Source: Limnothrix sp. CACIAM 69d
Lineage (GTDB): Bacteria > Cyanobacteriota > Cyanobacteriia > CACIAM-69d
Direction of reading: 5' to 3'
NCBI GenBank assembly: GCA_001913845.2
Contig: MKGP02000053.1
Span: 186,001 to 250,000 of the forward strand
DNA length: 64,000 nt
Each line of letters opens with the position of its first letter. Position 1 is the first letter of the stretch. The position numbers and the translations under genes were made by a program. Below the pieces are notes generated by a model. The model had not been told where the DNA came from, did no database searches, and was given only the letters and a program-made list of their open reading frames with translations. Shown in pieces: positions 4,715 to 56,588 of this stretch.

Positions 4715-5428
4715 ATAGTATCTTGGAGTACTTGCCAAGCACCGATTGCTGTGAGAACAAGAAACTTTAGCCTTTTATTTTTGTTGCTAGATCCGTTAAT
4801 TTATAAACTTTTAACATGCCGGTTTTGATTTTTCAAATAGTCCCAATTAAAGAGGCCTAGCTTGCATCAATTCGGGATGAATTTTCCTTCACTCATTAAC
4901 TCCGAAAAACCTAAGAAAATGTCTGAAAAGCCAAAATTGCTACTCTGTACGCCCCAGTGATCGACTTAAAATCGACTTAAACAAGATGCTCAAGCCCCTT
5001 GTTCCCACGACTATTGGTGCTTGCTCGTGCCAAGGAATCCTTTTTCAACATCCCCTAAGGGGCTGATCTGGAATGAACAAAATGGAAGGGAACAGAAATC
5101 TGCTGTTGGATGATCGTGACTACTTGTGAAGAGATTAAGTGCTTTTAAGAAAACCTTATTCTGAAAATAATAAAATTATTGTTCACTGCTGAAATGGCGA
5201 AAGTTTGATGATGGCTGCCGCAAATCCCCCAACCTGTGATCAACTATGCATAGATGATCGATCGCCAACCATCTCCCCAACCTCTGAGGTATCGGAACTC
5301 CAATCGTTTGCAGGCCCCACCCGATCGTCAACAGTGCCAGACAAAACCTGAGCATCGGCCCCGACAAGCCAACAACTACAGGCTAAAAACTAAAAGATGC
5401 CCGGAATCCTTCCTGGAATCCTTCAAGG
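4715..5428. other. AT-rich intergenic region with one degenerate palindromic repeat
   Basis: No convincing gene seen over about 700 bases. AT content rises after tadA (for example around 4780-4930). At 4981-5002 lies ACAAGATGCTCAAGCCCCTTGT, followed by a cgactattggtgc stretch; both match the interior of the MITE copy near 35934 and are read as a degenerate relative of that repeat family. The 63-codon minus-strand frame at 5176-5367 has no recognisable features and is not called. Confidence 0.5.
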
Positions 5429-5434
5429 TATAAT
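5429..5434 (+). promoter_or_regulatory. Candidate -10 element for the small GTPase gene
   Basis: A perfect TATAAT lies 33 bases before the GTPase ATG at 5467. The expected -35 position (around 5406-5411) has only a weak match. Two near-direct copies of GGAATCCTTC (about 5403 and 5416) overlap the -35 region and could be an activator site. Inference from consensus only. Confidence 0.5.
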
Positions 5435-5466
5435 TTGACTTCGCTGAGACTTGTGTTGGGGGCAAA

Positions 5467-5997
5467 ATGGCGACTATTTCTAAGAAAATTTGTCTGGTTG
5501 GCGATTTTAGCGTTGGCAAAACCAGTCTAATTCGTAGGTTTGTTGATCGTCAATTTAGTGACCAATATTTGTCAACAGTTGGCGTTAAGATCTCCAAAAA
5601 ACTCATTGATTCCACTAGCCTTAAGCTACCAGAAGGCGACAAGTTTCAATTAATGGTCTGGGATATTGAAGGACGCACAGATTACAAGCCGATCGATGTG
5701 TCCTATCTCCGTGGTGCGAGTGGAATTATTATTGTTTCTGACAGCAGCCGAATGGAAACGGTAGAAAACCTCGATCGTCACCTACAAATGTTTCAGCAGG
5801 TTAATCCTAAGGGATCTGTCGTGATTGCCTTTAATAAGGCAGATCTCATTGAGCCAACAATGCTGACTAAGGTTATGGGATTGCATAGCTTTGCCCATGA
5901 GTCTCAGGTGGTGGCGACCTATGCCACTTCTGCCAAAACGGGCGATAATGTTGACAAGATGTTCCTAGAGCTATCGCAATCGATGCTCAACGGGTAA
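5467..5997 (+). CDS. Ras/Rab-like small GTPase
   Basis: 176 residues, a single G domain. G1 is GDFSVGKTS (G12-S20), a switch I Thr follows at T37, G3 is WDIEGR (65-70), G4 is NKAD (123-126) and G5 is TSAK (154-157). There is no C-terminal Cys box for lipidation. The residue at the position of Ras Gln61 is Arg70 (WDIEGR in place of WDTAGQ), which in eukaryotic Ras lowers GTP hydrolysis; whether it does so here is unknown. Bacterial Ras-like GTPases of this type are known but mostly uncharacterised. The gene has its own TATAAT and is followed after 105 bases by an adenylate cyclase on the same strand, suggesting a signalling pair. Role inferred from context only. Confidence 0.92.
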   Translation: MATISKKICLVGDFSVGKTSLIRRFVDRQFSDQYLSTVGVKISKKLIDSTSLKLPEGDKFQLMVWDIEGRTDYKPIDVSYLRGASGIIIVSDSSRMETVENLDRHLQMFQQVNPKGSVVIAFNKADLIEPTMLTKVMGLHSFAHESQVVATYATSAKTGDNVDKMFLELSQSMLNG

Positions 5998-6102: not shown

Positions 6103-8178
6103 ATGAAATTATCCTTGCCTCAGCATATCCAATTGATTGTTGTGAACGAAGCCTTCCAGGTGGTTTCGGTTCAGGGCAATGTGGCCCCTCTGATCGATTC
6201 AGGATTGCTGGAAATGTTGGTGGAGTCTGCGGATGGGGGAGCGATCGCCCCGATCGAGACCCCAACGGATGGGGCTGTGGATCACGCCACAGACCACTTG
6301 GCACCCACTGCCCCGGGTCTCAGCCCTGAGCAACTGGCTGCGCAATTGCTGGGGCTGGAGATTTATGAACTGTTCCCAGAACTCTTTGGAATCGATGAAA
6401 TTTTGGTGGAGGTGGCAGCGGGCGATCGCCCAGAATTCAACATCAAGGGCATTGGCCGTGTCACCGCCGATGGCTCCCCAATTTATTTTGATATTCATAT
6501 TACGGCGCACCCCAGCCCAACTGCTGAACACTATTTAATTTTTTTCCTAGAAGATGTAACCGATCGCATGAGCTTGGAGCAAGTGTTGGTTCAAGCGACT
6601 AACGAAAAACATCTGTTGATTCGAAATTTGGAGGAAACCAAGCAGCAGATTGATCAAATTATTTCAGCCATGAGCGAAATGCTGTTTTTGGTTTCAGAAG
6701 CAGGGTTAATTCGGATGGTGAACCCGGCCACTCGTCACCTGTTGGGTTATGAAGCCGAGGAATTAATTGGTCAGCCCATGTCGGCAATTTTGGTGCGCCG
6801 AGATGCCCCATCGGCTCCAGAGTCAGGACACCTGTTGGTGGCGGAGGAAGGGGAAGCGGTTTGTCAAACCAAGACCGGTGCGATTTTGGTGATTGCCTTT
6901 TCCCGATCGCGTCTCACCAACACCCTAATGGGACAGTTGGGGCGTGCAGATATGGCTCAAGATTTTCTGTATGTGGGGCGCGATGTTACGGAAGAAAAAC
7001 GCCGCCAACGATATCAATCGGTTCAACATTTAATTACGCGAATTATTTCTGAGTCGAATATTGCCACCCAAGCTCTGTCGGCAGTGGTTCGAGCCTTATG
7101 CCAAGAATTTGATTGGCAATTGGGAGAATTTTGGCTAATCGATCGCACGGACGTTGGCAGCGGAAATCCATCTGCCCATTGCATTGATCACTGGCTTTCT
7201 CCCGTACTGGAAATTAGCCATGATTGGAAGCCAGTACGTTGCCTGCGCTTGAATGAAGATCACAGTTTTCTCTCGCAGGTTTGGCAAGCAACGAAGGCTA
7301 AATGGCAACAAAATCTCCCGAATCAGGCGGTTCCGGCGGGAACGCTGGAAATTCAGAATCTAAACTTTAAAACTGGGTTTGGATTTCCGATTAAAACCGG
7401 CGATCAAGTGTTGGGAATTTTGCTGTTTTTCAAGCAAGCCTCTCAACTGGTGAGTCCTGATCTGTTGAACTTGGGTGAAAGTTTGGGCAGCCAGTTGGGG
7501 CAATATGTGGAACGTCGCAAGGCCGAAGAGGCCCTGTTACTAGAGCAAGAAAAATCTGAGCGCTTGCTGTTGAACATTCTGCCGGAGACGATCGCCCATT
7601 GTCTGAAGCGCAATGCCAGAACGATCGCAGAACAGTTTGCCGCCGTCACCGTTTTGTTTGCGGATATTGTCGGTTTTACGGAAATTGCTTCAAATCTGAG
7701 CGCGATCGAGCTGGTGGAATTATTAAATGAAATTTTCTCGGAATTTGATCAGCTCACAGAAATTCATGGCCTAGAGAAAATTAAAACCATTGGCGATTCC
7801 TACATGGTGGTGGCGGGGTTGCCCACTCCTCGCGCTGACCACGCCCAGGCGATCGCGAATATGGCCCTGGATATGCAGTTAGTCATGAGTCGGTTTAACG
7901 ACAGACAAAAACGCGATTTTCAAATCCGCATTGGGATTCACAGTGGTTCCGTTGTGGCAGGTGTGATTGGCCTGAAGAAATTTATTTATGATCTTTGGGG
8001 AGATACGGTCAACACCGCCTCGCGGATGGAATCGCATGGCATTCCAGGGAGAATTCAAACCTCAGCCGCCACCTATGCTCTGCTCAAAACTTCTTACCAA
8101 TTTGAGCATCGTGGCTTAGTTCACATCAAAGGGAAAGGCGATATGGATACCTATTTTCTGTTGGGGCATATGCCCTGA
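6103..8178 (+). CDS. PAS/GAF-domain class III adenylate cyclase
   Basis: About 691 residues, apparently soluble. Order: an N-terminal PAS-like segment (HIQLIVVNEAFQVVSVQG onward), a second PAS-like region ending at YLIFFLEDVTDRMSL, a short coiled coil, a canonical PAS (EMLFLVSEAGLIRMVNPATR), a GAF domain (from about residue 305), a signalling helix (RRKAEEALLLEQEKSERLLL) and the C-terminal cyclase. Metal-binding D521 (FADIVGFT) and D565 (IGDSYM), purine-selecting K561 (KIKTIGD) and D630 (YDLWGD), and N637/R641 (NTASRM) are all present; the Lys/Asp pair points to ATP and cAMP. One chain has every catalytic residue, so it should work as a homodimer. ATG 6103 is chosen over an upstream TTG at 6094. 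It follows the small GTPase on the same strand. Confidence 0.93.
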   Translation: MKLSLPQHIQLIVVNEAFQVVSVQGNVAPLIDSGLLEMLVESADGGAIAPIETPTDGAVDHATDHLAPTAPGLSPEQLAAQLLGLEIYELFPELFGIDEILVEVAAGDRPEFNIKGIGRVTADGSPIYFDIHITAHPSPTAEHYLIFFLEDVTDRMSLEQVLVQATNEKHLLIRNLEETKQQIDQIISAMSEMLFLVSEAGLIRMVNPATRHLLGYEAEELIGQPMSAILVRRDAPSAPESGHLLVAEEGEAVCQTKTGAILVIAFSRSRLTNTLMGQLGRADMAQDFLYVGRDVTEEKRRQRYQSVQHLITRIISESNIATQALSAVVRALCQEFDWQLGEFWLIDRTDVGSGNPSAHCIDHWLSPVLEISHDWKPVRCLRLNEDHSFLSQVWQATKAKWQQNLPNQAVPAGTLEIQNLNFKTGFGFPIKTGDQVLGILLFFKQASQLVSPDLLNLGESLGSQLGQYVERRKAEEALLLEQEKSERLLLNILPETIAHCLKRNARTIAEQFAAVTVLFADIVGFTEIASNLSAIELVELLNEIFSEFDQLTEIHGLEKIKTIGDSYMVVAGLPTPRADHAQAIANMALDMQLVMSRFNDRQKRDFQIRIGIHSGSVVAGVIGLKKFIYDLWGDTVNTASRMESHGIPGRIQTSAATYALLKTSYQFEHRGLVHIKGKGDMDTYFLLGHMP

Positions 8179-47517: not shown

Positions 47518-47683
47518 AATTAACGACCGGCGCTGACCAGGACTTTTTCTTGATCGTCCTTCGAGACCGATCGCCCTTGATCCTCAAAGCCATCGATTTG
47601 ATCGAAGTTGAGGTAGCGGTACAAATCGCCCGCCAGCGGATCGATCTTGCCCTTCACCACTTTCAGATATTTCTCTGGGATCA
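47518..47683 (-). repeat. Duplicate of the acnB 3' end (about 166 bases)
   Basis: From AATTAACGACCGGCGCTGAC to CCACTTTCAGATATT this segment is the same as 50570-50735 except for about five substitutions, in the same orientation. It represents the last ~54 codons plus stop of acnB without the rest of the gene. The left side touches the decayed IS; the right side cuts into a truncated gene. With the true acnB end it forms direct repeats around 47684-50569. Confidence 0.93.
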
Positions 47684-48059: not shown

Positions 48060-49502
48060 TTACAGGATCAGACTATTTTGCTGATTTTCAATTTTTTTCA
48101 ACGCCTGCCTCATTTCTTTGCCCAATGAAGCTACGATTGTTCCATCATCTTTAACTAGACTGCGAAACCAACAACTTTGCCCAACATCAAAGTTGATTTT
48201 GACAATTTGGGCACTATAGCCCTTTTGATCTAGTACGCTGGGTCGCGATTTTTGTTCAATAGTGCCCGAACCTAGTATTGGATGAGCGACTCGAGAACCC
48301 TGAGACAGAGCATCCCAGAACATATCATGGAGACCAATCTCCCATGCAAGTGATCTCAGTAAGCTATCACGCCTATTAAAATCTTCCTCAGTAACTACAT
48401 TGTTGGACTTAGTGTAGACAGTTTCAAACAAGCTTAGAGAAATTTTAGATATGTACTTTGCATCTTGGAGATTACTTTTGAATTGGTCAGGAATAGCATT
48501 CAAACCATACAATAACCCCCAAATTGCTCCAGCTAAATTAGCCAAAGTGTCAGTGTCTGAACCAAGGAGATTGACTATTTTCAAAAGTCCTTGGGCAGGA
48601 TCAGATTGATACTTGTAGGCCATTCCTATTGCGGTAGCAAGAGAAACTGTTCCTGCTCCTCTTGTAGCTCTCTCCAGAGCACCATTGATTTTATAAAATT
48701 CAAAATCACCTTGATTTAAAATTTTTATATTGCCAAATAAAGACTTGCATTCACGAACTGCGTTTAACCAAGCATGGCTGAATGCTTGGTTGTTAATTCT
48801 TTGCCACTTCTCTTTCCAAGAACGTAATCGGTGATCTAGGTCTAGAAACTCAAATGATTGTTCTTGAAGATTGTTTAATACTTCAGAAATTGTTGCAAGG
48901 TCTAGTCGTTGATGCTGAATTACGCTTCTTAGAAAGTATGCATACCCAATAGATCCTAAAATTGCTCGGATATGGCCATGTGTACATATCGTATTTTGGA
49001 AAACATCAATAATCATTCTCTGAACGTCTTGCCAGGAAGCAAGAACAATGGGCATGATTCTCATCATTGCACCATTGCCACCCGCTTCAACATATCTAAA
49101 TTTATTTCTACTTCTATCACTGGTGAAATTATCAAACCAATTTGCACCAGCGGCGAACCTGTGGGCTGACTGCTTAGTTGCAGCACCACCTCCTTGCTCA
49201 TATGCTAGCCATAGAGGTAGCTCCTCGTAGGCAAAACTTTCAACATCAAATTTTCCATTGAGTCTTATTGACCTAGCAGTACTCAAGAGTAATTGAGTAT
49301 CATCAGAATAAGCTCCTTCCTTTATTTCTTGCTTAAATCCCCAGTATTTACCTCCAATTACTTTTTTCCATGAACAGAATGTTTTTACGCTTCTTCTGTG
49401 ACCAAACTCCGTTGGCCATCCTAACGCGTCCCCAATAGCAGCCATCAAAAATGCTCCTTCATACTTACTTCTATAATTTGTTAAATAGTTGGTATCACTC
49501 AT
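48060..49502 (-). CDS. ADP-ribosylglycohydrolase (DraG/ARH fold), probable antitoxin of the DarT-like gene
   Basis: 480 residues. ARH enzymes remove ADP-ribose from proteins or nucleic acids using two Mg ions. Family motifs: YEGAFLMAAIGDALGWPTEF (14-33), metal-binding YSDDTQLLLS (65-74), AGGNGAMMRIMPIVLA (140-155), CTHGHIRAILGS, and the second metal motif LLGSDTDTLANLAGAIWG (~312-329). All key acidic residues are present. About 100 extra C-terminal residues (including GSGTIEQKSRPSVLDQKGYS) form an uncharacterised domain. Its ATG overlaps the TGA of the DarT-like gene by 4 bases, so the two are translationally coupled. AT-rich, no HIP1 site seen. The antitoxin role is inferred from the pairing. 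Confidence 0.88.
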   Translation of the reverse strand: MSDTNYLTNYRSKYEGAFLMAAIGDALGWPTEFGHRRSVKTFCSWKKVIGGKYWGFKQEIKEGAYSDDTQLLLSTARSIRLNGKFDVESFAYEELPLWLAYEQGGGAATKQSAHRFAAGANWFDNFTSDRSRNKFRYVEAGGNGAMMRIMPIVLASWQDVQRMIIDVFQNTICTHGHIRAILGSIGYAYFLRSVIQHQRLDLATISEVLNNLQEQSFEFLDLDHRLRSWKEKWQRINNQAFSHAWLNAVRECKSLFGNIKILNQGDFEFYKINGALERATRGAGTVSLATAIGMAYKYQSDPAQGLLKIVNLLGSDTDTLANLAGAIWGLLYGLNAIPDQFKSNLQDAKYISKISLSLFETVYTKSNNVVTEEDFNRRDSLLRSLAWEIGLHDMFWDALSQGSRVAHPILGSGTIEQKSRPSVLDQKGYSAQIVKINFDVGQSCWFRSLVKDDGTIVASLGKEMRQALKKIENQQNSLIL

Positions 49503-50461
49503 TGGCTGATTCTCAGTTTTTCTCGAAATTGGAGGATTGGCTTTCCGATCCCTTGACGCAAGAATACATCAAGAATTTGATAGTTTTCCACACATTCTTT
49601 TTTTATAGATACCTTTAAAGAACTGGCTGTACGAGATAACTCATAACTGTCTTTCAAAGAAGGCATATTTGGTTTTTGATTTTGAAACTCTAATATAATT
49701 TCAACATTACCAGAAATTTCACGAATCCTCAACTCTAGAATCAGATCTTGCGAAGCCTCACTTTTTATCAACTTGATTTCGTGTCGTTCAATGTAAGCAT
49801 GTGAACCACAGAAAAGGGATTCATCAACTTCCAATTTTTCAAATATTCCCTGTATCGACTTATGCCGATTATCCAGTTGCAGATGCTTGATTAAATTTTC
49901 TAAGCGGTGCCTTGCATAGCATAAACTAGACTTACTCCTAAAGCTTAAGGCATCAAACCAGTCAATATCGACAGGTCTCGGAATCAAAACCTCGGCCTGT
50001 TTTTTAATCTTTACTATTTTATTTGGGTAAGGATGATCACTTCTAATTGCTTCAAAATCTAAAAGCTCCAAGCCCATTAAACCAAAGCCTCGTTTTTGAT
50101 CATTTGCCGTGGCATTTCTATCTACAAAGACTACTTCATCTACGGTGCACAATTCAATCTTTGCCTTGATATAGAATATGTGCATCTCCATTTCTCGGTA
50201 ATATGCCATAGGCAATTTAGGACACAAGGAGAATGATATTTTATTCCAGTTGTCATATCTGACATCCAACTCCTTTGAGCGTGGATTGCCACCAGTTACA
50301 ACTTTATCTAAGAAGCCTCGTTCCTCAAGAATTGATTTCGGCAGAAGTCCATACTTAACAATTGTCGGGAGATTGTAAATATCTGTAAAATGATATAAAT
50401 GATTGATTCTATTTTTGCGTATTAAGGAAAGTATTTTTTGATTACTTGACAAATCTTGCAT
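49499..50461 (-). CDS. DarT-like (DUF4433) ADP-ribosyltransferase, probable toxin
   Basis: 320 residues. DarT toxins transfer ADP-ribose from NAD to bases in single-stranded DNA. Matching elements: NAD-binding HLYHFTDIYNLPTIV (HFT at 24-26), the conserved FSLCPKLPMAYY block (77-88), VVFVDRNATANDQK (110-123), and KKQAEVLIPRPVDIDWF (153-169) with E157 at the expected catalytic Glu. Residues ~190-320 are an added helical and beta-rich region that standard DarT lacks. It starts at 50461 after AGAGAA, ~110 bases beyond the end of acnB, with a hairpin between, and overlaps the glycohydrolase by 4 bases. Strongly AT-rich with no HIP1 site. Target base unknown. Confidence 0.82.
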   Translation of the reverse strand: MQDLSSNQKILSLIRKNRINHLYHFTDIYNLPTIVKYGLLPKSILEERGFLDKVVTGGNPRSKELDVRYDNWNKISFSLCPKLPMAYYREMEMHIFYIKAKIELCTVDEVVFVDRNATANDQKRGFGLMGLELLDFEAIRSDHPYPNKIVKIKKQAEVLIPRPVDIDWFDALSFRSKSSLCYARHRLENLIKHLQLDNRHKSIQGIFEKLEVDESLFCGSHAYIERHEIKLIKSEASQDLILELRIREISGNVEIILEFQNQKPNMPSLKDSYELSRTASSLKVSIKKECVENYQILDVFLRQGIGKPILQFREKLRISQ

Positions 50462-50550: not shown

Positions 50551-50571
50551 TGCAAGCAACAATTGTCCTAA

Positions 50572-53163
50572 TTAACGACCGGCGCTGACCAGGACTTTTT
50601 CTTGGTCTTCCTTCGAGACCGATCGCCCTTGATCCTCAAAGCCATCGATTTGGTCGAAGTTGAGGTAGCGGTACAAATCGCCCGCCAGCGGATCGATCTT
50701 GCCCTTCACCACTTCCAGGTATTCCTCGCGGCTGGGAATCCGACCCAACAGGGCACAGACCGCCGCCAACTCCGCCGAGCCGAGGTAGACCTGCGCCCCC
50801 TTACCCATCCGGTTGTTGAAGTTGCGGGTTGAGGTCGAAAACACGGTGGTGTTGTCTTCCACGCGGGCTTGGTTGCCCATGCAGAGCGAACAACCGGGCA
50901 TTTCCAACCGACAGCCGGCCGCCTCAAAGATCTCGTAGTAGCCTTCCTGACGCAGCATTTCTTCGTCCATCCGCGTCGGCGGGCAGATCCAGAGGCGGGC
51001 CTTGGCTTTGCCGGCCCCTTCCAGGACTTTGGCGGCGGCGCGGAAGTGACCGATGTTGGTCATGCAGGAACCGATGAACACCTCTTGCACCGGGTCGCCG
51101 ACGCAATCGGACAGGGTTTTGATGTTGTCCGGGTCGTTGGGCGCAGCCACCAGGGGTTCCACCAGTTGATCGAGATCCACTTCGATGATGTCGGCATATT
51201 CCGCATCCGCATCGGCGGTCATCAGCGAGGGATTCGCCAACCAGGCTTCCATCTGGGCAATCCGACGGGCGATCGTCCGGGCATCTTCATAACCGCGCGC
51301 GATCATGTTCTTCAGCAGGGTGACGTTCGATCGCAGGTATTCCGACACGGTTTCCACGCTCAGGGCGATCGTGCAACCGGCAGCCGATCGCTCGGCGGTC
51401 GCGTCGGTCAGCTCAAAGGCCTGCTCCAGCTTCAGATCCGGCAGCCCTTCCATTTCGATGATCTTGCCGGAATAGATGTTCTGCTTGTTCTCCTTCGCAA
51501 CGGTCAGCTTGCCTTGCTGAATTGCCACGTAGGGAATCGCGTTCACCACATCCCGCAGGGTCACACCCGGTTGCAGGCTGCCCTTGAACCGCACCAAAAT
51601 CGACTCGGGCATATCCAACGGCATCACGCCCAAGGCCGCCGCAAAGGCCACCAATCCAGAACCCGCCGGGAAGGAAATGCCCAGGGGGAAACGGGTGTGG
51701 GAATCGCCGCCCGTGCCCACCGTGTCCGGCATCAGCATCCGGTTCAGCCAGGAGTGGATGATCCCATCGCCGGGGCGCAGGGCCACGCCGCCACGCTGGG
51801 CGATGAAGTCCGGCAATTCCGCGTGGGTTTTCAGATCCACCGGCTTCGGATAGGCCGCCGTGTGGCAGAAGCTTTGCATCACCAAGTCAGCGCTGAACCC
51901 GAGGCAAGCCAATTCTTTCAGCTCGTCGCGGGTCATGGGGCCAGTGGTGTCCTGGGAACCCACGGTGGTCATGCGCGGCTCGCAGGAGGTGCCGGGGCGC
52001 ACACCGGGCAGACCGCAGGCCTTGCCAACCATCTTTTGGGCCAGCGTGAAGCCTTTGCCGGTGTCGGCGGGAGCGGTGGGGCGCACAAACAGGGTGCTGG
52101 GTTCCATCCCGAGGGCTTCGCGGGTTTTGTCCGTCAAGCTGCGACCGATCAGCAGGGGAATCCGACCGCCGGCCCGCACTTCATCCACGATCGTGTCGGG
52201 CTTCAGGCTGAAGGTGCTGATCACCTCGCCCGCTGCGTTGGTGATTTCGCCCTTGTAGGGATAGATCGTGATTACGTCGCCCGTGTTCATTTGGGATACG
52301 TCGCACTCGATCGGCAGGGCCCCCGAATCTTCGGCCGTGTTGAAGAAAATCGGCGCAATCTTGCCGCCCAAAATCACGCCACCGGCCCGCTTATTGGGGA
52401 TGTGGGGAATGTCGTCGCCGATGTGCCACAGCACGGAGTTGATCGCCGATTTGCGCGAAGACCCCGTACCGACCACATCGCCCACATAGGCGATCGGGTG
52501 GCCCTTAGCCTTCAGCTCCGGCAACAAACCCAAAGCTTCCGGCATCTTGGTTTCCAGCATGGCCAAGGCGTGCAGCGGAATATCGGGGCGGGTGGTGGCG
52601 TGGGTGGCTGGCGAAAGGTCGTCGGTGTTGGTTTCGCCGGGCACTTTCAGCACCGTGACGGTAATCGCTTCGGCCAGCTTCGGTTTGGCCAAAAACCATT
52701 CGGCGGCCGCCCAGGAGTCGATCACCTGTTTGGCGTAGGGGGTGCGCTCCGACAATTCCAGCACGTCGTTGAACGCATCGAAGGCCAGCGTGATTTTGCT
52801 GAGGGCGGTGGCGGCGGCTTGGGCAATGCCCGCATCCTTGGATTTCAGCAGGCTGACCAGGGATTGCACGTTGTAGCCGCCGACCATTTGCCCCAGGATG
52901 GCGACTGCGCCTTGGGGGGTGATCAGGGGGCTGGTGGTTTCCCCTTGGGCGATCGCGGTCAGGAAGGACGCTTTCACATAGGCCGCCTCATCCACACCGG
53001 GGGGCACGCGATCGCACAGCAAGTGCATCAAAAATTCTTCTTCCCCAGCGGGCGGGGTTTCCAGCAGCTTACACAGGTCGCTGGTTTGGGCGGCATCGAG
53101 GGGCAAGGGGGGGATGCCCAGTTGACCGCGTTCTTCGACCTGTTGGCGATAAGCTTCGAGCAT
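50572..53163 (-). CDS. acnB: Bifunctional aconitate hydratase 2 / 2-methylisocitrate dehydratase
   Basis: 863 residues, full length. TCA-cycle aconitase of the AcnB type, with its HEAT-like N-terminal region (1-~155) followed by the swivel domain (VPGETNTDDLSPATHATTRP) and the 4Fe-4S domains. Cluster Cys residues are in VFIGSCMTNIGHF and EMPGCSLCMGNQARV; TVGSQDTTGPMTRDEL and GTGGDSHTRFPLGIS are also typical. GC and HIP1 content look native. Both flanks carry foreign-looking cassettes, and its last ~54 codons are duplicated at 47518-47683. The long open frame on the opposite strand is a shadow. Confidence 0.97.
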   Translation of the reverse strand: MLEAYRQQVEERGQLGIPPLPLDAAQTSDLCKLLETPPAGEEEFLMHLLCDRVPPGVDEAAYVKASFLTAIAQGETTSPLITPQGAVAILGQMVGGYNVQSLVSLLKSKDAGIAQAAATALSKITLAFDAFNDVLELSERTPYAKQVIDSWAAAEWFLAKPKLAEAITVTVLKVPGETNTDDLSPATHATTRPDIPLHALAMLETKMPEALGLLPELKAKGHPIAYVGDVVGTGSSRKSAINSVLWHIGDDIPHIPNKRAGGVILGGKIAPIFFNTAEDSGALPIECDVSQMNTGDVITIYPYKGEITNAAGEVISTFSLKPDTIVDEVRAGGRIPLLIGRSLTDKTREALGMEPSTLFVRPTAPADTGKGFTLAQKMVGKACGLPGVRPGTSCEPRMTTVGSQDTTGPMTRDELKELACLGFSADLVMQSFCHTAAYPKPVDLKTHAELPDFIAQRGGVALRPGDGIIHSWLNRMLMPDTVGTGGDSHTRFPLGISFPAGSGLVAFAAALGVMPLDMPESILVRFKGSLQPGVTLRDVVNAIPYVAIQQGKLTVAKENKQNIYSGKIIEMEGLPDLKLEQAFELTDATAERSAAGCTIALSVETVSEYLRSNVTLLKNMIARGYEDARTIARRIAQMEAWLANPSLMTADADAEYADIIEVDLDQLVEPLVAAPNDPDNIKTLSDCVGDPVQEVFIGSCMTNIGHFRAAAKVLEGAGKAKARLWICPPTRMDEEMLRQEGYYEIFEAAGCRLEMPGCSLCMGNQARVEDNTTVFSTSTRNFNNRMGKGAQVYLGSAELAAVCALLGRIPSREEYLEVVKGKIDPLAGDLYRYLNFDQIDGFEDQGRSVSKEDQEKVLVSAGR

Positions 53164-53336
53164 GGTGTGTTCTGTCTCCTGCGAGCGCTGTAGCGGTGAT
53201 GCCGAGCATCGGCGATCGTGCTTAACAGTCTAGGATCGCAGGGGTCAGTTGCAAGCGGGCGATCGTCGTGAACGCTTGAGGTCAGGTATGTTAATTTGAA
53301 TAGAGATCAAAAATCAATTGCTTAGGTCAAGTAATC

Positions 53337-54587
53337 ATGAGCCAGTCTGAGTGGAGTAGTGATGGTAAGTCCTTACCTATCATTGAGCCCCATACAAAGG
53401 CAAAGCACAAAATTCTAGAAGAGTATGTGGAAAATCTCATACTCACTCTTTATAAAAAAGGACGCTATGGCTTGAAAACTTTTACATTCATTGATGGATT
53501 TTGTGGAGGAGGAATGTATCATGATCCCTCTACCAATGAGCTATGGGAAGGCTCGCCATTACGTATTATGAAAGCAGTGGAGAGGGGGTGTCAGAAATCA
53601 CGTAGAAAATATCCACAGCCACTAGATGTTAAATATATTTTTATTGATAGCAAGACCAGTCATTTGGAATGCTTGAAGAACTTTTCCATGCATCAGGCTG
53701 GATTTAGTGAAGAATTTATTCGTGAAAACTGTCAATTTGAGAAAGGAGAGTTTGAGAATGTCATAAACTCTGTACTTCTAAATCTTGGATTAAGAAAAGG
53801 TCATTCACTATTCTTCCTGGATCCGTTTGGCTGGTCTCATGTATCAATGTCGACCATACGAAAGATCAACAGTCTTTCAAAATCGGAAATTATTTACACT
53901 TACATGATTGATCCTATCGCACGGTTCATTGAACAGCGAAATGACGCACAGCTTTCTAACTTTCAAAATATTCTAGAAGCTGATGGTTACTATCTACAAG
54001 CAAAACCATCTATGATTAAAAGTCCTGAGTATCAATGCTACCTTAGAAACGAAACGATGCGTCTGTTTCGCGACAAGGGAAGATTCAACTATATCTTTAC
54101 ATTCTCGCTTATTTCTAGAGGCTTTACGCGAGTCATATATTACTTGATTCATATGTCAAACAACTTGACAGCCCTTGAAGTCATGAAAGAGAGTTTTTGG
54201 AAGGAGAATACGCTGGACTATGAATACTACTTTGAACTTTATGGATATGGTTTTAGATCCATCGATTTTTATCAAGAAAATCAGATTGACCTGAAATTTG
54301 ACATTAATCAAGGGAATGAATCATTCTGTATCAGCAAACTAGACAACGAAGTTGGTGCATTGGTTGAGGGTAGTCAAGATGGTATTTCATTTCAAGAAAT
54401 CTCTGAGCAGACTATGCAGACAAATCCTGCAAGTCGAAAGCACTACCTTGAATATCTAAAGCAAAGACGCGAAGCTGGGGATTTTGAAATCATTAGAGAT
54501 GGAAAAATAACCAACTCTCGAGATCTTAAACGAACTGATATTGTTCGTATTCAACGCAACAAGCAGCTTTTTCTATTTCGTTTTTAA
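53337..54587 (+). CDS. tcmP: Three-Cys-motif partner protein TcmP
   Basis: 416 residues. TcmP proteins occur next to Gp37/Gp68 (DUF5131) three-Cys proteins; their function is unknown. Visible family features: IEPHTKAKHKILEEYVENLI (16-35), then TFTFIDGFCGGGMY (48-61), which resembles a SAM-binding loop, and SLFFLDPFGWSHVSM (~155-170), a DPFG element like methyltransferase motif IV. A C-terminal winged-helix-like region follows (YLKQRREAGDFEIIRDGKIT). A Rossmann methyltransferase fold is inferred. AT-rich with no HIP1 site seen; it begins 173 bases from the acnB start, divergent from it. Confidence 0.9.
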   Translation: MSQSEWSSDGKSLPIIEPHTKAKHKILEEYVENLILTLYKKGRYGLKTFTFIDGFCGGGMYHDPSTNELWEGSPLRIMKAVERGCQKSRRKYPQPLDVKYIFIDSKTSHLECLKNFSMHQAGFSEEFIRENCQFEKGEFENVINSVLLNLGLRKGHSLFFLDPFGWSHVSMSTIRKINSLSKSEIIYTYMIDPIARFIEQRNDAQLSNFQNILEADGYYLQAKPSMIKSPEYQCYLRNETMRLFRDKGRFNYIFTFSLISRGFTRVIYYLIHMSNNLTALEVMKESFWKENTLDYEYYFELYGYGFRSIDFYQENQIDLKFDINQGNESFCISKLDNEVGALVEGSQDGISFQEISEQTMQTNPASRKHYLEYLKQRREAGDFEIIRDGKITNSRDLKRTDIVRIQRNKQLFLFRF

Positions 54588-54636
54588 AAGTCTGATCTTG
54601 GCATCGTTATTCATCACTTATCTGATTTTTAAAACC

Positions 54637-55509
54637 ATGAAAGAGCCAAATTCTGTAGAAGTCAATCAAGATAGTTCAAACTTTGAAATCATCACATTGG
54701 ATGATGGTAAGAAAATTTACATTGCAAGAAATTCTCCCAAGAAGTCAGTTTTTAACACAACCAATGAGATGGTTGACTGGGCTTGGTGGACATGGAACCC
54801 AGTCACCGGATGCTGGCATGGTTGCCCGTATTGCTACGCTCGTGACATTGCCAATCGGTTCTATGAAACAAAGTTTGAACCCACGTTTTACCCCGATCGT
54901 CTGAATGCTCCTAAAAATACACGTCCCTTTTCTCCAGAAAAGATCAAGATTGAAGCTAAGAAAAGACGGGTCAAGCTAGAAGATGCTCAAATCTTTGCTA
55001 AGAACGTTTTCACCTGCTCCATGGCTGATCTATTCGGCAAATGGGTTCCTGAAGAGTGGATTCTCAAAGTTTTCGATTCAGTCCGCTCTGCACCAGAGTG
55101 GAATTTTCTGTTCCTGACCAAATTTCCCCAACGATTACAAGAAATCAATGATCTCTTGGGAGGATTCCCGGAAAACGTTTGGGTTGGTACAACTGTGGAT
55201 ACCCAAGCCAGGGTTGCCTTAGCCGAAAAATCGTTTAGAAATATTGAAGCAACGGTGAAATGGCTATCAATTGAGCCAATGCTTGAACCTTTGCAATTCA
55301 GTAGCCTAGAAATGTTCGACATGATTGCTGTTGGCGGTCAAAGCAGAACAACTCATCAACCTGAATTCCAGCCTGAATGGGAATGGGTTGAAAGTTTACT
55401 TTTGCAAGCGCGTCAATCAGGCACGTCTGTCTATTTCAAGGAAAATCTCAGGGCACGTCCTAAAGAAGCACCCTGGCAAGGAAATAAGGTGTGCGCACTG
55501 TCGAGCTAG
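54637..55509 (+). CDS. DUF5131 / phage Gp37-Gp68 family three-Cys protein
   Basis: About 290 residues. The cluster motif CWHGCPYCYAR (C59, C63, C66 in a CX3CX2C pattern) follows WWTWNPVTGCW, the family hallmark; it suggests a radical-SAM-like 4Fe-4S enzyme. Barrel-like segments follow: VFTCSMADLFGKWVPEEW, NFLFLTKFPQRLQEI, VWVGTTVDTQARV, WLSIEPMLEPL and MIAVGGQSRTTHQPEF. The end is KENLRARPKEAPW. Some relatives act in DNA modification or phage contexts, but no reaction is established. ATG 54637 is preferred over the open upstream extension. It lies 49 bases after tcmP and forms a two-gene cassette with it. Confidence 0.9.
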   Translation: MKEPNSVEVNQDSSNFEIITLDDGKKIYIARNSPKKSVFNTTNEMVDWAWWTWNPVTGCWHGCPYCYARDIANRFYETKFEPTFYPDRLNAPKNTRPFSPEKIKIEAKKRRVKLEDAQIFAKNVFTCSMADLFGKWVPEEWILKVFDSVRSAPEWNFLFLTKFPQRLQEINDLLGGFPENVWVGTTVDTQARVALAEKSFRNIEATVKWLSIEPMLEPLQFSSLEMFDMIAVGGQSRTTHQPEFQPEWEWVESLLLQARQSGTSVYFKENLRARPKEAPWQGNKVCALSS

Positions 55510-55550
55510 CAGCAAAGAGACCTCCAACAATAATTGGATTAAGGCACTAG

Positions 55551-55665
55551 GAGGCGATCGAGCATGGTGACGTGGCAAAGTCTGAGCAAACAAGCCGAGC
55601 AACTTTCCTGGCGCGATCGCCTCGCCCTGATTTGGCAGCTAGTGCGATCGCTCTTAGGGCGATCG
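55551..55665 (+). repeat. Direct repeat copy 1 (5' module of an antitoxin gene)
   Basis: About 113 bases, from AGGAGGCGATCGAGCATGGT through the codons for the first ~34 residues, repeated at 56278-56391 with only scattered substitutions. The unit includes the ribosome-binding site AGGAGG, a GCGATCG half-HIP1 and the start codon, so whole expression signals were copied along with the coding module. Confidence 0.9.
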
Positions 55666-56210: not shown

Positions 56211-56277
56211 CTATTACCCTTTGACACTTTCTGAATTTCTTGTTCTTATTATTGTGAAATTACTAAACCAGAGACCA

Positions 56278-56391
56278 GGAGGCGATCGAACATGGTGACG
56301 TGGCAAAGCCTGAGCAAACAAGCTGAACAACTTTCCTGGCGCGATCGCCTCGCTTTGATTTGGCAGCTAGTGCGATCGCTCCTGGGGCGAT
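56278..56391 (+). repeat. Direct repeat copy 2 (5' module of an antitoxin gene)
   Basis: Second copy of the unit at 55551-55665, beginning AGGAGGCGATCGAACATGGT. Downstream of about codon 34 the two antitoxin genes become unrelated. Confidence 0.9.
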
Positions 56392-56588
56392 CGTCCAACA
56401 TAAAAAGCTCAACTATCGCAGAGTCAGTCGATAGTCTCTCTGAGATAGAAGACTATCAATCAACAATTTCGGGCGTGCCTGGTCAACAGTTAGTGAAATT
56501 CGCTGGAATAATTTCCCCAGAGGATTTGCAGGATATTTCAGAAGCCATTGCAACGGACTGTCGCCGGGTCAATCCCAATGATTGGTAA
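56292..56588 (+). CDS. Putative antitoxin 2 with shared N-terminal module
   Basis: 98 residues. The N-terminal 34 match antitoxin 1. The C-terminal part, GVPGQQLVKFAGIISPEDLQ then DISEAIATDCRRVNPNDW, is the tail found in another cyanobacterial antitoxin type partnered with PIN toxins. The protein therefore looks like a chimera of two antitoxin families. Its stop overlaps the following vapC start by 11 bases, the usual coupled arrangement. Confidence 0.8.
   Translation: MVTWQSLSKQAEQLSWRDRLALIWQLVRSLLGRSSNIKSSTIAESVDSLSEIEDYQSTISGVPGQQLVKFAGIISPEDLQDISEAIATDCRRVNPNDW

Follow-up and report, generated by a model that had tools for sequence, protein, structure and literature searches.

The main result of our computational analysis is that a TcmP-family gene and the DUF5131 gene next to it (Table 1) belong to a partnership that is near-obligate and in which the partners are interchangeable. 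The folds computed for the two proteins are those of a SAM-dependent methyltransferase and of a radical-SAM enzyme (hereafter rSAM), pairs of this kind are carried by mobile elements, and in three species of one genus a module comprising TcmP and the beginning of the rSAM gene has been swapped at the same chromosomal site. The best explanation would be a two-component SAM-dependent modification module, with protection of the host against phages as its most likely role. The window mentioned throughout is the whole stretch of DNA that was analysed (64,000 nucleotides).

Table 1. Features of the TcmP-DUF5131 locus and its flank (positions in the window).
Feature	Coordinates	Strand	Description
TcmP-family gene	53337..54587	+	416 aa, intact frame; SAM-methyltransferase-like domain and C-terminal winged-helix-like region
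DUF5131 radical-SAM-like gene	54637..55509	+	290 aa, intact frame; CX3CX2C; phage-type subclass without ParB domain
acnB	50572..53163	-	Flanking housekeeping gene, conserved; anchor of the locus, outside the system
Exchanged module (TcmP gene and first ~36 rSAM codons)	53277..54745	+	From the three-species comparison
rSAM N-terminal ~36 codons	54637..54744	+	Diverged between congeners; proposed (inferred) docking element

An earlier note, made from the sequence, had described the two genes with a 49-base gap between them, the motifs FIDGFCGGG and CX3CX2C, acnB, and an ADP-ribosylation pair on the other side of acnB. Open reading frame inspection and family profiles bore out the coordinates, the gap and both motifs, and the neighbours are as described. 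The DUF5131 frame also has a longer TTG start at 54541, which we rejected because the homologues in both congeners begin at the residue matching the ATG at 54637; the intergenic gap is therefore 49 bp. The pair is AT-rich, as had been claimed (GC content of 37% in TcmP and 44% in DUF5131, vs. 54% in the window). It also lacks HIP1 sites (GCGATCGC; none in its 2173 bp vs. 72 in the 64 kb), which taken alone is weak since only ~2.4 would be expected at the local rate (Poisson probability of zero ~0.09), and we rejected it as proof of a foreign origin of the pair. The gap in HIP1 becomes stronger once the equally HIP1-free ADP-ribosylation block (48060-50461) is added, with ~5 sites expected over both and none seen. 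Scans for Rfam families, tRNAs, promoters and terminators around the pair gave nothing above chance. Neither the pair nor the adjoining genes of the window include a restriction nuclease, so that it does not qualify as a restriction-modification system.

The TcmP protein matches TIGR04474 (tcm_partner) over residues 18-290 (1.1e-45, 156.6 bits vs. a cut-off of 53), a family that calls for a neighbouring three-Cys-motif protein, here the DUF5131 protein encoded 49 bp downstream. FIDGFCGGG (motif I) occupies residues 51-59 and LDPFG, which we take to resemble the DPFG-type motif IV of Trm1, residues 161-165; D53, G57, G59 and D162, within the SAM and catalytic motifs, were invariant across 30 homologues. 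In the AF2 model, computed with the alignment of 30 homologues (pLDDT 87, pTM 0.88), the top Foldseek match was Trm1 (3axs, E 1e-5), a remote one with 11% identity and a TM-score of ~0.37; other class I SAM methyltransferases came next, and the list includes some small-molecule and peptide methyltransferases. The C-terminal region (~313-384) is winged-helix-like, and a GMT-wHTH match in the protein (1.1e-4) was under the cut-off. A Rossmann-like methyltransferase fold, a glycine-rich motif I and an acidic motif IV are those expected of class I, and the model thus supports a class I SAM-methyltransferase fold with a predicted methyl-transfer activity. A fold search of BFVD returned only generic methyltransferases, PHROGs gave no match for TcmP, and a sequence search of the PDB gave no convincing relative of either protein.

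The DUF5131 protein matches PF07505 (1.3e-42, 146.5 bits vs. a gathering cut-off of 28.9) and carries the cluster motif C59-x3-C63-x2-C66, whose three cysteines were invariant in 72 homologues, with the spacing CX6CX2C in some of them. Its AF2 model (72 homologues, pLDDT 90, pTM 0.87) is a partial TIM barrel whose top PDB matches are radical-SAM enzymes; spore photoproduct lyase (SPL) accounted for four of the five best solved structures found by Foldseek, and RlmN came next. The TM-scores are modest (0.37–0.47), so that they support the fold class and not a substrate. As PF04055 stayed under its cut-off (21.3 vs. 29.5 bits), the assignment to the radical-SAM superfamily is drawn from fold and motif; the equivalog cut-off of the radical SAM mobile pair A/B (TIGR04471/TIGR04470) was missed widely (75.5 vs. 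355 bits), and the PHROGs match is to a family of unknown function. A radical-SAM fold is thus supported by the model, and an Fe-S cluster and SAM cleavage are predicted. Structure prediction had been proposed in the earlier note as a check for a SAM pocket in TcmP and an Fe-S barrel in its partner: both folds found support, and we infer the two pockets from motifs and fold.

That the two families co-occur had been given as known in the earlier note, and the loci confirm it and reveal a second type of partner. TcmP was present in 45 of the 291 genomes of a phylum sample, and all 40 loci inspected with their flanks had a radical-SAM-like neighbour (31 DUF5131 and 9 SPL-like). A scan of genome contigs found 41 paired TcmP loci out of 43 (15 with DUF5131, 26 with the SPL-like protein). 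Three genomes are common to both sets (L052/L090, L053/L078 and L056/L095), which leaves 78 of 80 distinct loci with an adjacent radical-SAM gene; the other two, both from the contig scan, are cut by contig ends. The alternative partner is an SPL-like radical-SAM protein of ~330 aa, well conserved across loci, that matches PF04055 and the PA0069/Rv2578c models and has no PADLOC match; in a profile comparison it proved to be a remote homologue of DUF5131 (hhalign 92%, E 5.6e-7). Mapped on a tree built from 72 TcmPs, the type of partner has to change four times, and strongly supported branches enforce three or more of these changes; the window TcmP and its genus mate sit within a mostly SPL-partnered clade. 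A single switch to DUF5131 common to the window and L074, L075, L079 and L084 is not favoured, as the DUF5131 proteins of these loci have CX6CX2C and are distant from that of the window (35% identity for L075). The order of the genes varies (same strand in either order, or convergent with overlapping ends), and in most loci they overlap or nearly so. We also observed TcmP frames that were fragmented beside an intact DUF5131 (L061, L112 and L113), as happens in costly or decaying systems.

Among the sets compared, the nearest relatives of the window DUF5131 outside the genus were two cyanobacterial proteins (L260 and L261, 75–76% identity), and phage proteins followed at 56–41%. Most of these phage relatives carry some 150–350 extra N-terminal residues, in which ParB_N was matched in three of the four proteins tested; L114, the fourth, has matches to ParB-like families of phages. 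Directly upstream of the extended phage proteins examined is a short methyltransferase resembling TcmP, in which DPN mostly takes the place of DPF; it is related to TcmP with an hhalign probability of 97.6%. These phage TcmPs were detected only by way of DUF5131, and a scan of viral contigs with the window-type TcmP found no relatives. The cysteine spacing of the phage relatives and of the window DUF5131 is CX3CX2C; that of the remaining DUF5131 partners of TcmP that we inspected is CX6CX2C. Judged by sequence, the window pair is then a hybrid, in which a TcmP of the SPL-partnered clade stands next to a phage-type DUF5131. As far as the tools used can show, three variants are new here: the form with the SPL-like partner, the phage form fused to ParB and the hybrid of the window. 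DUF5131 is not always part of a pair, since the three mycobacteriophages inspected, Typha, Squirty and Phayonce (L222, L223 and L224), carry it amid other blocks of genes and have no TcmP with it; HNH endonuclease or replication genes were seen near the DUF5131 gene of two of these phages.

The locus beside acnB could be compared in three species of the genus of the window, and the claim of a swap is based on these three genomes. Codons 37–290 of the rSAM gene are 97–99.6% identical between congeners, with dS of 0.26–0.51 and dN of 0.003–0.016, values that indicate strong purifying selection on the body of the enzyme; for acnB the identity is 97–99% at the amino acid level and dS ~0.19–0.20. 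The first ~36 codons, in contrast, are merely 36–47% identical, and together with TcmP they differ in each of the three species. One congener (G033) has a TcmP 66% identical to that of the window with saturated dS, and the other (G291) a 279-aa TcmP-family methyltransferase of DPNG type that hardly aligns with the window protein, with 23% identity over 168 residues. The breakpoints are approximate: the flank on the acnB side is common up to ~53277, in the gap between acnB and TcmP, and similarity resumes at ~54742-54745. Since the loci L260 and L261, from relatives in another family, carry the same rSAM type with a DPNG-type methyltransferase, the DPNG arrangement is probably the older one and the window TcmP probably the replacement. 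The exchange of the rSAM N-terminus in parallel with TcmP suggests that this part contacts the partner as a docking element; in the model it has short beta-strands at residues 9–30, and residues 1–12 are mostly of low confidence.

Duplicated stretches were also observed around the locus. A 158-bp segment that matches the 3′ end of acnB occurs twice (96% identity; 47518-47675 and 50570-50727), the second copy of this end lying on the far side of the ADP-ribosylation pair, which consists of a DarT-like ADP-ribosyltransferase and an ADP-ribosylglycohydrolase (PF03747) instead of the usual macrodomain antitoxin DarG. The ADP-ribosylation pair is absent there in both congeners, and the insert looks bounded by the copy of the acnB end. 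In the G291 locus (L231, reverse complement, 5401-5525 and 6140-6263) it is the 5′ flank of acnB that occurs in two copies (84%, ~125 bp), with an inserted gene of 148 aa between them, and with duplications flanking inserts at both ends of acnB, both seem insertion-prone. Downstream of the pair, a direct repeat of ~120 bp (92.5%; 55546-55665 and 56274-56393) makes the first ~34 residues encoded by two small antitoxin-like genes (at 55564 and 56292) alike; their C-termini differ, and so do the PIN-like toxin frames next to them.

The earlier note had taken the function of the pair as unsolved and its neighbours as a hint of defence. The former stands, in that the literature searched held no functional study of TcmP, DUF5131 or any member of such pairs, although the kind of pair is already catalogued by PADLOC as the predicted defence candidates PDC-M30/M41. 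For PDC-M30 the window TcmP scores 1.1e-21 (M30A) and DUF5131 1.2e-35 (M30B), side by side as the system requires, and for PDC-M41 the values are 9e-12 (A) and 4e-39 (M41B). The neighbourhood argument failed: near 20 cyanobacterial pairs, PADLOC-matching genes were not above matched controls from the same genomes, a comparison of 140 genes on each side, in which only a large enrichment would be visible. The pair also comes without a nuclease or any other obvious effector. What speaks for defence is found elsewhere, in the prophage repressor slot, Hna and the swapping of alleles. In the four Gordonia temperate phages inspected (Easley, Bosnia, Fairfaxidum and BaxterFox) the pair lies between the immunity repressor and the integrase, a repressor-linked position like that of the tested defence pair CarolAnn 43/44, which is co-expressed with the repressor (PMC6426606). 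The same slot of Bosnia also holds a ShosA-like gene (1e-58). In Sinorhizobium meliloti 1021 a DUF5131-TcmP pair lies directly beside hna and another TcmP, which are arranged like an operon and convergent with the pair; we identified as hna the helicase-like frame at 8286-10823 of L225, an unannotated record, from its position and size, and PMC12445080 lists hna together with SMa2243, a TcmP, as responding to NolR. PDC-M30 was found in 32 of 100 strains of Pseudomonas aeruginosa, 68.8% of them phage-resistant, and is commoner in phage-resistant strains, a correlational finding (PMC10855318). On pSymA of S. meliloti (L217, 6292-10079) a DUF5131-TcmP pair is followed by genes for an HD-domain protein, an AAA ATPase, a 3′-5′ exonuclease and another radical-SAM protein, possibly a larger system and worth a check.

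We propose that TcmP, a Trm1-like methyltransferase with a winged-helix-like C-terminus, would act on nucleic acid and that DUF5131, of the same class as SPL, would perform or complete the reaction on that target. The exchangeable and probably target-choosing part would be TcmP and the retained catalytic one the rSAM body, in a module that travels on phages, plasmids and islands and would most likely protect the host through modification of the invader's nucleic acid or of an RNA that infection requires. That the two enzymes form an obligate unit is almost certain, and we infer a physical complex between them. Nucleic acid is a probable substrate and the anti-phage role somewhat less so, if still the better bet; for all three to hold jointly the balance is about even. 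Of the targets proposed in the earlier note, nucleic acid or peptide, the nearest folds (Trm1, SPL and RlmN) and the ParB fusions of phages point to the former, and the latter is disfavoured. Some peptide and small-molecule methyltransferases do appear among the structural matches of TcmP, and RiPP and small-molecule clusters commonly contain radical-SAM enzymes and methyltransferases, yet the ParB and winged-helix context speaks against such a product, and a gap of 49 bp here, with overlapping or almost overlapping genes in most loci, leaves no room for an intergenic precursor peptide; we consider this reading very unlikely. An ordinary tRNA or rRNA modification or nucleic-acid repair pair, spread horizontally and free of any role in conflict, would fit the same three folds, the lack of defence enrichment in cyanobacterial neighbourhoods and the precedent of wybutosine synthesis, where enzymes of these two kinds work successively on a single nucleotide. 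It is nevertheless improbable, given that a patchy distribution (45/291 genomes) is atypical of housekeeping genes, as are carriage by phages and plasmids, allele swapping and a prophage immunity slot.

The pair might also protect mobile DNA itself, by modifying a nucleobase of its carrier against host nucleases, with the chromosomal copies as remnants or bystanders. Its frequency on phages and plasmids, the fusion of the phage rSAM to a DNA-linked domain (ParB_N), the action of SPL on DNA and the absence of a cognate nuclease, as in orphan modification, all agree with this. However, in the Gordonia temperate phages the pair adjoins the repressor and not the lytic genes, and three species kept the rSAM at a constant position in the chromosome while TcmP was replaced; we consider self-protection an unlikely explanation. 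As for the window pair being a non-functional hybrid left by recombination, its members do stem from different partnerships and the N-terminus of the rSAM is within the exchanged part, but both frames are intact with their catalytic motifs, the substitution rates of the rSAM body are those of a constrained protein, and a second species holds the same type of hybrid with a different TcmP allele; we regard it as highly improbable. Within the preferred reading, that of an anti-phage modification module, one can go further to a new class in which methyltransferase and radical-SAM enzyme jointly install a nucleobase modification on the invader, TcmP being a specificity cassette swapped like HsdS, with at least two interchangeable rSAM families and a ParB-fused phage form. 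This is possible and we put it forward tentatively, as rather doubtful. Should the pair serve in defence, it would do so through base modification by a radical-SAM enzyme and with no nuclease, a kind of system that to our knowledge has not been described so far. Phages, plasmids and chromosomes commonly carry DUF5131/TcmP pairs, and the Gordonia phages Easley, Bosnia and Fairfaxidum are cultivable carriers of the pair for direct tests of its role and product.

The likeness to known systems is partial in each case. SPL is the best match of the DUF5131 model, yet a remote one, and the PA0069/Rv2578c radical-SAM family, which the alternative SPL-like partner matches, has equivalog cut-offs far above the score of DUF5131. 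Trm1, a tRNA m2,2G26 methyltransferase, is the top structural match of TcmP, but at 11% identity and with no tRNA-binding domain recognised in TcmP. CarolAnn 43/44 and RexAB of lambda are likewise two lysogenically placed genes beside a phage repressor; their proteins are unrelated to ours (a membrane protein and a DUF4747 match), and genomic position alone is common. With the exchangeable specificity subunits of the HsdS type the pair has in common that one subunit is swapped as a cassette and the other conserved, an analogy only, as the window pair has neither a nuclease nor HsdS homology. Both window proteins are above the cut-offs of TIGR04474 and PF07505 ("phage Gp37/Gp68") and adjacent, as the family name says, the descriptions of these families being silent on fold, partner exchange and function. 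In PDC-M30/M41, whose catalogue entries are predictions and leave the SPL-like variant outside PADLOC, the combination is the same, a TcmP-like A and a DUF5131-like B protein; the rSAM of the window differs from the other TcmP-partner DUF5131s inspected in its phage-type CX3CX2C instead of CX6CX2C, and both window proteins match both models.
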